Origin: Melioribacter roseus P3M-2
GTDB lineage: Bacteria > Bacteroidota > Ignavibacteria > Ignavibacteriales > Melioribacteraceae
Length of the DNA: 64,000 nt
Direction of reading: 5' to 3'
Assembly (NCBI RefSeq): GCF_000279145.1
Contig: NC_018178.1
Location: forward strand, 1,302,001 to 1,366,000
The notes under the pieces were generated by a model, which saw nothing but the letters and a program-made list of their open reading frames with translations, was not told where the DNA came from and ran no database searches. Of the stretch, positions 10,104 through 15,036 are shown piece after piece. The translations under genes were made by a program, and so were the position numbers. Position 1 is the stretch's first letter. Each line of letters begins with the position of its first letter.

Positions 10104-10178
10104 GGTTTTTTAAGAAAATCTGTTGAAACTGTCACGAACGATTCTTATAATAAAATCCAAAATTTTGAGATTTTACAA

Positions 10179-10350
10179 GTGCAATCGAGCAGTTCCCACA
10201 TAACGACCCTTCATAATAATTTGCCGACTACCCCGCGCGGCAAAAACAGAGAACTGCATACAAAAACGACGTCCACGCAAACGCATGTCACGACGTGCTG
10301 ATTTTCAGCGCTCAGCCCCAGCTTTTTCATTAATTAATTTAAGCAGGTAA
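10179..10350 (+). promoter_or_regulatory. Putative Thr-rich leader (attenuator-like) of the threonine operon
   Basis: The 247 bp before aspartokinase contain an open frame ending TGA at 10299-10301. Its last 13 codons (10260-10298) read T-K-T-T-S-T-Q-T-H-V-T-T-C, seven Thr codons out of 13. Possible starts are GTG 10179 (41 codons) or TTG 10221 (27 codons), neither with a strong ribosome site. Just after it, GCTGA-TTT-TCAGC (overlapping the stop) can form a short hairpin, and an alternative TCAGC lies at 10312-10316, followed by CTTTTTC. A leader peptide stalled by scarce Thr-tRNA is the classic control of thr operons; here it is an inference. Confidence 0.45.
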
Positions 10351-11753
10351 ATGAGTATGATAATATTAAAATTCGGCGGATCAAGTGTAGGTAATTCGGA
10401 AAGAATTAACGGCGTAATCGATATTCTTTCGAAGTATTATTTGAATAACGGAAAAAATTTGCCGTTGTTTTCTCGGCATTTCAGGGCGTTACCGACAAAC
10501 TGATAGAAATTGCCCGTAAAGCCGACAGCAGAGACAATTCCTACAAAGAAGAATTCGATTATCTGGTCGAACGACATTTGAAAATTGCAGCCGACTTGAA
10601 TCGAAACGAAGACTTACCCGGCATTGAAAAATTGCTCGGCAGTCTGTTTGACGAATTGAAAGAAATTCTGCACGGCGCTTATCTCGTGCGGGAAGTATCT
10701 CCCAAAACTCTCGACTTTATTCAAAGCTTCGGAGAAAAATTATCCTGCACAATAATCACTTACACGATGCAAAAGAGAGGAATAGACTGCGAATATCTGG
10801 ACGCCAGCAAATTGATAAAAACCGACGACAATTTCGGCAATGCAAAAGTAAACGAAAAGGCAACATACAATAAGATCAAAAGATATTTTTCGAGGCGCAA
10901 AAAGTTGCAAATCATTACCGGCTTCATTGCCTCTACTTCCGACAACGAAATTACCACGCTCGGCCGCGGCGGTTCGGATTATACGGCGTCGATTTTCGGG
11001 GCGGCTTTGAACGCTAAGAAAATAGAAATCTGGACGGACGTCGACGGTATTCTTACCGCCGACCCGCGTAAGGTCAAAAACGCATTCCCATTGCCCAGCG
11101 TCACTTACGAAGAAGCTATGGAATTGTCGCATTTCGGCGCAAAAGTTATTTATCCTCCCACTCTTTTACCAGCTCTGAAAAAGAATATCGAAACTGTAAT
11201 CAAAAACACTTTCAATCCGGAATTTCCGGGCACGAGAATTATCAAGCGTGAACAGAGTTCCGACATGACAGTCAAAGGAATTTCTTCGATAGACAACGTT
11301 ACATTGCTCGGCATATCGGGCGGCGGCATGGTAGGTGTAACCGGAATAGCGGGAAGATTATTTACGGCTCTGGCTCGCTATAATGTTAATATAATTTTGA
11401 TTTCGCAGGCGTCGTCGGAGCATTCGGTTTGCATTGCCATTCCTCCTGCGATGGGAAAGATTTCGGTCAAAGCGATCGAAGAAGAATTCAAACTCGAAAT
11501 CATGGAAGGCAAAATAAGCCGCGTTTCGCTCGAAGAAAATCTATCGGTTATAGCGGTCGTAGGAGAAAATATGAGACGAACTCCGGGCATTGCGGGAAGA
11601 GTTTTTCAGTCTCTCGGCAAAAACAATATTAATATTGTTGCCATCGCCCAGGGCTCGTCGGAATTGAATATATCGCTCATTATCGACAGAAAAGATATAA
11701 CGAAAGCCCTTAACGTGCTTCACAACAGTTTATTAAAAACAAGAAAACGGTGA
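10351..11753 (+). CDS. lysC: Aspartate kinase, one-base frameshift near the 5' end
   Basis: First enzyme of the aspartate pathway, ATP-dependent phosphorylation of aspartate, about 467 residues when read across the shift. The N-terminus IILKFGGSSVGNSERI is in one frame. From 10464 the other frame continues VVFSAFQGVTDKLIEIA. Restoring one A in the run at 10452-10457 joins them (NGKKFAVVFSAFQG). The kinase domain shows TTLGRGGSDYTAS, EIWTDVDGILTADPR and SHFGAKVIYPPTL. Two ACT domains follow (about 300-465), so feedback control is likely. No homoserine dehydrogenase domain is fused. Downstream are asd, thrB and thrC, so threonine may be the effector; thrA-like naming is equally defensible. Confidence 0.88.
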
Positions 11754-11757
11754 AAAG

Positions 11758-12807
11758 ATGAAAGAAAGCAAAATACCCGTAGCCGTATTGGGAGCGACCG
11801 GCAGCGTCGGACAAAGATTTGTCGAATTGCTTGCCAATCACCCCTGGTTTGAAGTCGTTGAATTATGCGCATCCGACAGATCCGCGGGAAAAAAATATAA
11901 AGACGCGGTCAACTGGATTATGGCTACTCCGATTCCTCCCCAATTCGAAAACATGATAGTAAAGAAATGCGAGACCGGTTTGATGGCGCGCGTGCTTTTT
12001 TCGGGACTCGATTCTTCGGTTGCGGGCGATATCGAAAAAATGTACGCCGAAGACGGATGTATTGTGATTTCAAACGCGCGCAATCACCGTTTCGACAAAG
12101 ACGTTCCGTTGATTATACCCGAAATTAATTACGAACACTTAGAACTTATTAAATCCCAAAAATATAAAGGAGCGATTGTAACAAATCCGAATTGCTCTAC
12201 AATCGGAATGGCGCTGGCTCTTAAACCTCTGATGGATAATTTCGGAATTGAAACGGTGAATGTGACTACGTTGCAGGCTATTTCGGGCGCGGGTTATCCC
12301 GGATTGTCGGGGCTGGACATTATGGATAATGTAGTGCCGTATATCGGCGGAGAAGAAGAAAAAATGGAAACGGAGCCTCTGAAAATATTCGGTAAGTTGA
12401 AAGACGATTCGATTGAATACGCCGATATTAAAATAAGCGCTCAATGCAATCGGGTCGCCGTTCTTGACGGTCATACGGAAAATATTCAGATTAAATTGAA
12501 AACCAAGGCGGAGCCGAAAGATATAATTGAAGCCTGGAATAATTTCAGATCTGCGCCTCAGGAATTGAATCTGCCTTCGGCTCCTGAAAAACCGATAGTC
12601 TATTTAGAGCAGGCAAATTATCCTCAGCCGAGAATTCATCGCAACCTTGGCGGAGGAATGTCGATTTCGGTAGGCAGACTCCGGGAATGTTCCCTCTTCG
12701 ATTATAAATTCGTAGCGCTGTCGCATAATACAATCAGAGGCGCGGCAGGGGGAACGATCTTGATTGCCGAATTAATGAAAGCAAAAGGGTATTTCGATGA
12801 GCTCTAA
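11758..12807 (+). CDS. asd: Aspartate-semialdehyde dehydrogenase
   Basis: Converts aspartyl phosphate to aspartate semialdehyde with NADPH, 349 residues. The Rossmann motif VLGATGSVGQRF is at 10-21, and the catalytic Cys146 is in VTNPNCSTIG. GGEEEKMETEPLKIFG and HTENIQIKLK are typical of the archaeal/fungal-like Asd subgroup rather than the E. coli type. The gene starts 4 bp after the aspartokinase stop and overlaps thrB by 11 bp, so it is part of the thr operon. Confidence 0.94.
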   Translation: MKESKIPVAVLGATGSVGQRFVELLANHPWFEVVELCASDRSAGKKYKDAVNWIMATPIPPQFENMIVKKCETGLMARVLFSGLDSSVAGDIEKMYAEDGCIVISNARNHRFDKDVPLIIPEINYEHLELIKSQKYKGAIVTNPNCSTIGMALALKPLMDNFGIETVNVTTLQAISGAGYPGLSGLDIMDNVVPYIGGEEEKMETEPLKIFGKLKDDSIEYADIKISAQCNRVAVLDGHTENIQIKLKTKAEPKDIIEAWNNFRSAPQELNLPSAPEKPIVYLEQANYPQPRIHRNLGGGMSISVGRLRECSLFDYKFVALSHNTIRGAAGGTILIAELMKAKGYFDEL

Positions 12808-13732
12808 ATCGATTAAAGTATTTGCGCCGGCTTCGGTTTCCAATGTCGGACCCGGATTCGACATGATGGGATTTGCCCTTCACACTCCCGGCGACGAAGT
12901 AACTGTAAAATTAACCGACCGCAAAGAAATTCGTATCGTTAAGATATCCGGCGACAACGGCTATCTCCCTTATGAAATTGAAAAGAATACTACTACCGGC
13001 GCCATGCTGTCTTTATTAAAGAAATACAGAATTAATGCCGGGATGGATGTATTCATACACAAAAAGATGGGAATCGGAAGCGGTTTGGGATCGAGCGCAG
13101 CGAGCGCCGTAGCCGGCGTGTTTGCTCTCAATGAACTTCTCGAATTGAGATTGTCCCGTTATGAACTTTTGGAACACGCGCTTAAAGGAGAATTTATTGC
13201 CAGCAGAAGCATTCATGCGGATAACGTTGCTCCATGTCTCTACGGCGGATTCGTATTGATTCGCAGTTATAATCCGATTGACATTATTAAAATCGATTAT
13301 CCGGACGATCTCTATTGTTCGATTGTCTATCCAAATATAGAAATAAAAACCAGCGAAGCCCGTAAACTTATAAGTAAGAATGTAAGTATGAAAAAAGCGA
13401 TTGCGCAGGCGGGCAATGCTTCGGCTTTGATTGCGGGTTTGATTACAGCCGACTACGATTTAATCGGCAGATCGATAGTCGATTACTTTGCCGAGCCGAA
13501 ACGCGCCGCTTTAATTCCCTGTTACGACGACGTGAGAAACGCCGCTCTGGAAAAAGGGGCGATTAATTGTAACATAACAGGCTCCGGTCCTTCGATGTTT
13601 GCATTTTCGAGAACCGAATCCGACGCGCGCTCTATTGCGCGAGCTATGTTGAAAGCCGTTAAATCCGCAGGCTTCGACGGCAAAACTTATGTGTCTAAAA
13701 TTAATAAAAAAGGCCCGGTGGTTTTAAAATGA
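12797..13732 (+). CDS. thrB: Homoserine kinase
   Basis: GHMP kinase that phosphorylates homoserine, 311 residues. The N-terminal motif is VFAPASVSNVGPGFDMMG, and the nucleotide-binding loop GIGSGLGSSAA is at 92-102. NITGSGPSMFAF is the C-terminal GHMP motif. It overlaps asd by 11 bp and thrC by 4 bp, implying coupled translation. Homoserine itself must be made by a homoserine dehydrogenase encoded elsewhere, since none is in this operon. Confidence 0.94.
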   Translation: MSSKSIKVFAPASVSNVGPGFDMMGFALHTPGDEVTVKLTDRKEIRIVKISGDNGYLPYEIEKNTTTGAMLSLLKKYRINAGMDVFIHKKMGIGSGLGSSAASAVAGVFALNELLELRLSRYELLEHALKGEFIASRSIHADNVAPCLYGGFVLIRSYNPIDIIKIDYPDDLYCSIVYPNIEIKTSEARKLISKNVSMKKAIAQAGNASALIAGLITADYDLIGRSIVDYFAEPKRAALIPCYDDVRNAALEKGAINCNITGSGPSMFAFSRTESDARSIARAMLKAVKSAGFDGKTYVSKINKKGPVVLK

Positions 13733-15036
13733 AATTCTACAGCACTAACGACAAAAAAAACATTGTTGATTTCGAAACTGCTGTAATGGAAGGATTGGCA
13801 AAAGACGGAGGCCTTTTTATGCCCGTCGAAATTCCTTCCTTGCAAAAAGAAATAATCGACTCGATTGAAAATTTTGATTTTGGGGAAATTGCTTTCAGAA
13901 TTACGAAAAATTTCGCCGGCGAAGAAATTGGCGAAAGCGACCTGTCGGATATTATTCGGGAAGCTATAAATTTTCCGGCACCGCTTGTTAATCTGAAAGA
14001 CGATTTAATGATACTCGAACTCTTTCACGGACCGACGCTTGCTTTTAAGGATTTCGGCGCGCGGTTTATGGCTAAAACAATGGGATATTTTGTAAAGAAA
14101 AAAGAGAGCACTCTGAATATTCTGGTGGCCACTTCAGGAGATACGGGCAGCGCCGTAGCCTACGGATTTTATGAAACGCCCGGTATTAATGTTTATATTC
14201 TTTATCCCAAAGGGAAGGTCAGTCTGATCCAGGAAAAACAACTGACAACGCTCGACAAAAACATAACCGCGCTCGAAATCGACGGCACGTTCGACGACTG
14301 CCAGAGATTGGTAAAAAACGCCTTTGTCGACGAGGAACTTAATTCTAAACTGAATCTTACCTCCGCAAATTCGATTAATATAGCGCGATTGCTGCCTCAA
14401 TCGTTTTATTATTTCGAAGCCTATAAACAAATTCGGGAAAAATCGATTCATTCGGTCTTCTCGGTGCCTTCGGGCAATCTCGGCAATCTTACCGCCGGTT
14501 TAATTGCAAAAAAGATGGGGCTCCCGATAACAAAATTTATCGGCGCGGTCAACAGCAATCATGTCTTTGCCGATTTTGTCAACAGCGGAATATTTAAACC
14601 GCATCCCTCGGTTCAAACTCTTTCGAATGCAATGGACGTCGGGAACCCGAGCAACCTGGCGCGCATACGGGAGTTGTACGGCGACAGTCTTTCCGATATT
14701 CAACGGGATATTCACTCCAAATCGTACGACGACGCCCAAACGCGTAGAGGCATAAGGGAAGTTTACGAAAAATACGGCTATATAATCGACCCGCACGGAG
14801 CAGTCGGGTATATGGCGGTAAGGGATTACGAAACGGTTAGCGCCGCCGCAAAATTTAACAAAGTGATTCTGGAAACCGCGCACCCTGCAAAATTCAAAGA
14901 TGTTATTGAAGACGAACTCGGAATTGAAGTTGAAGTTCCGGAACGATTGGCTGCCTGTCTCAATAAGCAAAAGAAAAGCGTTCGACTGAGCTCCGATTAC
15001 GAAGAACTGAAAGAATTTCTGCTCGGCGCCGTTTAG
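13729..15036 (+). CDS. thrC: Threonine synthase
   Basis: PLP enzyme converting phosphohomoserine to threonine, 435 residues, of the longer E. coli/yeast-like class. The N-terminus is MKFYSTNDKKNIVDFETAVMEGLAKDGGLFMP. The PLP lysine is Lys107 in GPTLAFKDFGARF, and the phosphate-binding loop is SGDTGSAVAYGF. It overlaps thrB by 4 bp and ends the operon. Its stop overlaps by 4 bp the stop of the convergent lipoprotein hydrolase, so no room is left for a separate terminator. Confidence 0.95.
   Translation: MKFYSTNDKKNIVDFETAVMEGLAKDGGLFMPVEIPSLQKEIIDSIENFDFGEIAFRITKNFAGEEIGESDLSDIIREAINFPAPLVNLKDDLMILELFHGPTLAFKDFGARFMAKTMGYFVKKKESTLNILVATSGDTGSAVAYGFYETPGINVYILYPKGKVSLIQEKQLTTLDKNITALEIDGTFDDCQRLVKNAFVDEELNSKLNLTSANSINIARLLPQSFYYFEAYKQIREKSIHSVFSVPSGNLGNLTAGLIAKKMGLPITKFIGAVNSNHVFADFVNSGIFKPHPSVQTLSNAMDVGNPSNLARIRELYGDSLSDIQRDIHSKSYDDAQTRRGIREVYEKYGYIIDPHGAVGYMAVRDYETVSAAAKFNKVILETAHPAKFKDVIEDELGIEVEVPERLAACLNKQKKSVRLSSDYEELKEFLLGAV

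Follow-up and report, generated by a model that had tools for sequence, protein, structure and literature searches.

A threonine-codon leader gene without a conserved intrinsic terminator upstream of the ask-asd-thrB operons of Melioribacteraceae

The thr operon of E. coli is preceded by the leader gene thrL, which senses threonine and isoleucine and acts through a GC-rich intrinsic terminator. The tnaC leader of E. coli senses free tryptophan by arrest of the nascent chain, and controls a degradative operon. Outside the proteobacteria, control by leader peptides has mostly been recorded by way of the terminator that stands beside a codon-rich frame. In the toiL-topAI system of E. coli, stalling of the ribosome on the uORF controls translation downstream, and Rho termination occurs as a consequence (PMC12121999).

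In this work, we have used sequence comparison to analyse the region upstream of the aspartokinase (ask)-asd-thrB-thrC operon in a stretch of 64,000 nucleotides from Melioribacter roseus P3M-2 (hereafter the window). Our results indicate that this operon is in all likelihood preceded by a regulatory Thr-codon leader that works without an intrinsic terminator, an estimate that leaves aside the Rho step considered below.

The leader gene and its conservation

The leader gene lies at positions 10179–10301 of the window, on the forward strand, and consists of a GTG start, 40 codons and a TGA stop (translation MQSSSSHITTLHNNLPTTPRGKNRELHTKTTSTQTHVTTC). A Thr-rich frame ending at 10301, with seven Thr in its last 13 codons, had been predicted from the letters of the window, and both the codon listing and a count over the whole window bear this out. 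The putative regulatory block at 10260–10298 of the same strand reads ACA AAA ACG ACG TCC ACG CAA ACG CAT GTC ACG ACG TGC, with six of the seven Thr codons being ACG; the Thr codons extend to within one codon of the stop, and Ile codons are not enriched. Among the 5452 stops in the six frames of the window, the leader alone has at least seven Thr within the 13 preceding codons; exactly six are found at none and five at six stops. When 608 kb of related loci were scanned, eight places had at least six Thr, and five of these were leaders directly upstream of thr operons. As in an amino-acid leader, we are dealing with a short gene rich in codons for the product of its own operon, here and in the 14 operons described next.

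We located aspartokinase genes in 79 of 116 relatives, in 60 genome loci and throughout the family, and took the upstream regions from the returned loci. The same design occurs in 14 ask-asd-thrB operons from seven genera of the family Melioribacteraceae, the window included (the others are L003, L004, L005, L006, L064, L066, L068–L070 and L072–L075). It comprises a promoter at a fixed distance, an ATG, GTG or TTG start, 26–40 codons, and a stop 51–73 nt before ask; the Thr-rich frame, whose presence in relatives the original prediction had proposed as its check, is kept in all of them. The leaders end in the pattern T-x-T-x-T...[R/C]-stop, with Thr-alternating ends such as TSTQTHVTTC, TTYTFTTTR, TATSTQTYTMTR, TATSTHTQTMTR and TCITCTC, and the codons upstream of the Thr block are poorly conserved. 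The nearest named relative, L003, is a Melioribacter roseus MAG with an aspartokinase 91% identical, and the last 33 nt ahead of the leader stop codon are identical in it. In L069, only three of the last 16 leader codons are Thr, and Met and Cys codons take their place. In every operon with this leader, asd and thrB come immediately after a monofunctional ask, and only one of the 15 monofunctional operons of the family is the exception (L083, a monofunctional ask-asd without a Thr leader). The Melioribacter-type leader was absent from all fused thrA-type operons examined; within the family most of these have no Thr leader, though the leader of at least one (L080) is of the classical form.

Some leader ends, in L069, L066, L074 and L075, alternate Thr-Cys or Met-Cys (TCITCTC, HTSTCTC, SMCMC), and might thereby also sense Cys or Met. 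In L006, the SulCav Melioribacter MAG, an additional monofunctional ask-asd-thrB-thrC operon is preceded by a Thr leader of its own; this may be a genuine second copy, or the contig may be a contaminant.

A predicted promoter, TTGAAA-N17-TATAAT (10123–10151, forward strand), matches the consensus at 11 of 12 positions, and is at the sequence level the only strong conserved one at the thr operon of the window. It lies 5΄ of the leader, which at the sequence level speaks against a transcript start after 10300, one of the two observations that were to refute the original prediction; the other, a loss of the Thr codons in relatives, is not seen. The pattern TTG-N3-N17-TANNNT is found upstream of all 14 leaders and ends 26–30 nt before the leader start in 13 of them (37 nt in L069), the chance of finding it at that distance being 0.0025 per sequence. 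In the window the GTG at 10179 starts 27 nt 3΄ of the TATAAT, and the coordinates and GTG start originally assigned to the leader are supported by the NTG that 13 of the 14 leaders have 26–30 nt after the same box. An alternative in-frame TTG start, giving 26 aa, is less likely because the promoter-to-start position is conserved. Since the promoter pattern stands at a fixed distance from the start across the 14 leaders, we take the GTG start and the Thr frame as real, and on this comparison the frame 10179–10301 is a genuine Thr-codon leader gene.

The identities of the genes that follow establish that the leader is placed directly 5΄ of the thr operon, as had been proposed. On the forward strand these genes are ask, of the monofunctional type (10357–11753), asd for aspartate-semialdehyde dehydrogenase (11758–12807, TIGR00978), thrB for homoserine kinase (12797–13732, TIGR00191) and thrC for threonine synthase (13729–15036, TIGR00260). 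The ask frame of the window is broken near 10452–10457, where A6 stands against A7 in L003, and this one-base break gives rise to two ORFs, 10351–10503 and 10578–11753. It is either an assembly homopolymer error or a real recent mutation; the copies in L003 and other close relatives are intact.

Terminators and other leaders

A hairpin of 7 bp, GTGCTGA/TCAGCGC (hairpin B), is predicted at 10295–10311 of the forward strand (arms 10295–10301 and 10305–10311; −8.0 kcal/mol), with its 5΄ arm covering the last codon and the stop of the leader. Counterparts exist in seven of the 14 leaders, the window included, with differing sequences that still pair, and are absent in the other seven. The minimum free energy structure also contains a possible 1:2 pause-type hairpin, ACGTC/GACGT, within the Thr codons (10269–10296, forward strand). 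GCTGA/TCAGC pairings and a CTTTTTC tract had been reported to lie just after the frame; both exist, the latter at 10322–10328, but no stem adjoins the tract. An intrinsic terminator near it was rejected, as the terminator scan of the window found no stable stem directly 5΄ and there is no conservation. In L003 a T tract is likewise present but lacks an adjoining stem on its 5΄ side, and the closest to a terminator among the 14 leaders is L068, where hairpin B is followed by TTTTC.

The scan of the 14 ask leaders found no conserved intrinsic terminator between leader and first gene, and the same scan finds strong ones in the control leaders of class 1 (below). Nor do the 14 leaders have the mutually exclusive antiterminator and terminator of the thrL type, there being no terminator and hairpin B being present in only half of them. 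What stands of the attenuator first proposed here is a conserved Thr-codon leader before the thr operon; its thrL-type form does not, with no conserved terminator and a T tract without a stem.

Class-1 Thr leaders were found in other FCB lineages (L008, L013, L028, L031, L045, L087–L089 and L091), and to these L080, with a fused thrA and from the same family, is added; a rougher scan adds L161, L163, L164, L166 and L167. Their stop lies 75–110 nt before the gene, which codes for aspartokinase or is thrA, and the Thr run ends several codons before the stop. The first ten have a strong terminator with a U tract, of −11 to −22 kcal/mol. Inspection of the sequences shows complementarity between the stop region and the 5΄ arm of the terminator, for example in L008 (GGCTGAAGC with GCTTCAG) and in L031 (GAGGAAGG with CCTTCCTC). 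These class-1 Thr leaders are classical attenuators. The original prediction had considered such attenuators to be hardly described in the FCB group, which is too strong, as leaders with a Thr run and a strong terminator occur commonly among other Bacteroidota and Ignavibacteria. Vitreschak et al. in 2004 reportedly listed some attenuator candidates in Bacteroidetes and Chlorobi, and the classical form in this group is therefore not new. The contig of L013 that carries its Thr-leader thrA operon also has a SAM-I riboswitch at 10648–10766 (RF00162, 70 bits).

Melioribacter itself has terminator-bearing leaders upstream of hisG (a His leader, KIHTGNWHHHYNYF) and of trpE (a Trp leader, HWWWWRS). 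Upstream of hisG (L179, reverse strand) the leader MKRKIHTGNWHHHYNYFSSAGMV is accompanied by the terminator CCCCGGCGCATGTCGGGG plus T9, with an antiterminator arm, GCGCCGG, in the leader end, and upstream of trpE (L181, about 1620–1780) the leader MKNRNHWWWWRSVIPVISVIT is accompanied by the terminator CCCTTCTTAGTTATCACTGAGAAGGG plus T6. Judged by these elements, the first is a classical His attenuator and the second a classical Trp attenuator. There is also a branched-chain leader (LLGIINLIIINIISLVIILG) 117 nt before ilvD (L180, reverse strand), and branched-chain-rich frames precede ilvD in all 25 family loci with a script-placed start (L183–L211), a few of these starts being misplaced. The ilvD leaders of the family are usually without an obvious T-run terminator. 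In the Melioribacter ilvD leader, TCAATCCCTAAC is predicted to pair either with TTAGGGATTGA or with the ilvD Shine–Dalgarno sequence, GTTAGAGGATTGA, and the modelled access to the latter is 0.21 with the ribosome at the stop and 0.39–0.46 with the ribosome stalled 18–30 nt upstream; on this modelling it looks like a translational attenuator. Given its own His and Trp attenuators and the branched-chain leader before ilvD, Melioribacter does use leader-peptide control, and probably does so widely; nor is thr the only place in this genome where a terminator-poor leader occurs.

How the leader could control the thr operon

Comparison across the family shows conservation of the leader gene together with its promoter and Thr codons, and of its association with the thr operon; that the leader regulates, and in which direction, we infer. 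The leader very probably lets the cell sense a shortage of threonine by ribosome stalling. We propose that the 40-codon uORF senses charged tRNA-Thr and controls ask-asd-thrB-thrC in cis. With threonine plentiful, the ribosome would pass the Thr codons and leave at the stop, and downstream expression would be damped; with threonine scarce, it would stall on the Thr block abutting the stop, and expression would go up. The damping step would not be an intrinsic terminator, and stalling would relieve the repression through a terminator-less step. As this step we tentatively favour termination by Rho within the leader and spacer, which are C-rich and unstructured; a stalled ribosome would block it, as in E. 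coli tna.

The Rho step is favoured because there is no terminator and no clear sequestration of the ribosome binding site, because the spacer is C-rich and G-poor, and because Rho is encoded in the genome. The spacer, from the leader stop to the ask start, occupies 10302–10356 of the forward strand, and (C−G)/L is 0.146 in the 14 leaders versus 0.031 in 59 control 5΄ regions (P = 8 × 10−6, with related sequences treated as independent). C-rich, G-poor RNA and a genomic Rho are thus both present, as in Rho-dependent leaders of the tna or mgtL kind. Against the Rho step, the spacer is short for a Rho-loading site, and the proposal depends on base composition and the absence of other candidates.

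Could the leader act on translation instead? It is conceivable, though we doubt it, that alternative hairpins around the leader stop and the ask ribosome site control the translation of ask. With threonine plentiful, a ribosome at the stop might melt hairpin B, the spacer would pair with the ask Shine–Dalgarno sequence and start region (a possible hairpin C, 10310–10356 of the forward strand, predicted at −8.9 kcal/mol in the window), and translation would be blocked; with threonine scarce, a ribosome stalled on the Thr codons might let hairpin B form and free the ask site. Both hairpins can be drawn, with a 2-nt overlap, in the window, L003, L005 and L004, a stronger form is seen before ilvD in the same genome, where the segment after the leader stop can pair with the ilvD Shine–Dalgarno sequence, and toiL-topAI of E. 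coli uses such a switch, with Rho as a follow-on (PMC12121999). However, when the thr leaders were folded with a ribosome at each codon, access to the ask ribosome site did not change consistently between stalled and terminating ribosomes. Native spacers occlude this site no more than shuffled spacers, hairpin C and leader-to-RBS duplexes are no better than shuffles, and access equals that of control genes (0.49 versus 0.50 in 65 control genes), although equilibrium folding is a weak test, which also missed antitermination in most class-1 controls. A conserved static sequestration of the ribosome binding site is, within the reach of that weak test, unsupported by the masking, shuffle, duplex and control-gene comparisons. 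Long-range pairing between leader codons and the ask Shine–Dalgarno sequence was also rejected: it is suggestive by eye (ACCCTT with AAGCAGGT in the window and ACCCCGT with ACGGGT in L003; also in L070 and L006), but the duplex z is only −1.2 to −0.4.

Classical attenuation in the style of E. coli thrL, through an intrinsic terminator, is unlikely. The Thr leader, a hairpin overlapping the stop and the CTTTTTC tract downstream would suit it, and this form is found at his and trp in the same organism, but the 14 leaders have no conserved terminator stem and the stem is missing before the T tract of L003 as well.

There is even less to be expected from the idea that the conserved block is a nucleotide motif, an ACG-rich RNA or DNA site, in which the Thr frame is incidental. 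ACG makes up 52 of the 75 Thr codons (69%) in the last 16 positions of the 14 leaders versus 40 of 336 (12%) in ask, and only 5 of 64 in class-1 leaders; ACG is not scarce in Melioribacter, where eight genes have it at 53 of 189 Thr codons. The block is exactly conserved with L003, the nucleotide pattern persists in L069, where the codons are Met-Cys, and the codon choice stabilises local folding with a strong naive z. The mean z is only −1.2 against GC-matched controls and −0.6 against codon-order controls, though, and the Thr codons are in frame with a conserved start codon across leaders of different lengths. For the same much weaker z, a choice of ACG codons for RNA structure only was rejected. 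The tRNA loci scanned in the genome include tRNA-Thr genes with the anticodons GGU, UGU and CGU, and the ACG bias may reflect sensing of the CGU isoacceptor or an aid to local pairing.

Finally, it is very improbable that the leader only supplies ribosomes to ask by reinitiation, with no sensing of threonine, since short leader genes are proposed to boost translation in this way at distances near 10–14 nt (PMC4833913), whereas here the distance to ask is 51–73 nt, and the Thr codons and their restriction to thr operons would be left unexplained.

Relation to known leaders

On balance we lean towards the view that the thr operon of Melioribacteraceae, and perhaps ilvD, has codon-sensing leaders without an intrinsic terminator, the thr leader being tuned to ACG and its output being Rho-dependent or translational. 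If true, this would be a lineage-wide, non-classical form of amino-acid attenuation. Leaders without a terminator escape terminator-based searches and Rfam: in Rfam 15, no family scored at or above its gathering threshold, either in the window or at the thr leaders of the scanned loci, and among open papers we found none describing the thr leaders of Melioribacteraceae. As one terminator-less leader is kept in seven genera beside classical forms in relatives, the switch of the output step is open to comparison, and it can be tested in this clade, which includes a cultured genus.

The Rfam families Thr_leader and Bacteroid-trp share with our leader that they are amino-acid leaders of biosynthetic operons. 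toiL senses antibiotics that target the ribosome and not an amino acid (PMC12121999). The class-1 Thr leaders (such as L008, L013, L031, L045 and L087) also stand before aspartokinase or thrA, but differ from the Melioribacter type in their earlier end of the Thr run, their more distant stop and their strong terminator. The likeness to E. coli tnaC is that there is no intrinsic terminator and that a Rho-loading region would be covered by a ribosome halted close to the leader stop; in contrast to tnaC, the Melioribacter thr leader would respond to codon starvation, and the action of Rho on it is a proposal. With E. coli thrL, it shares a short gene rich in Thr codons directly 5΄ of a thr biosynthetic operon, and is set apart by having no terminator, no enrichment in Ile codons, and Thr codons that run almost to the stop.
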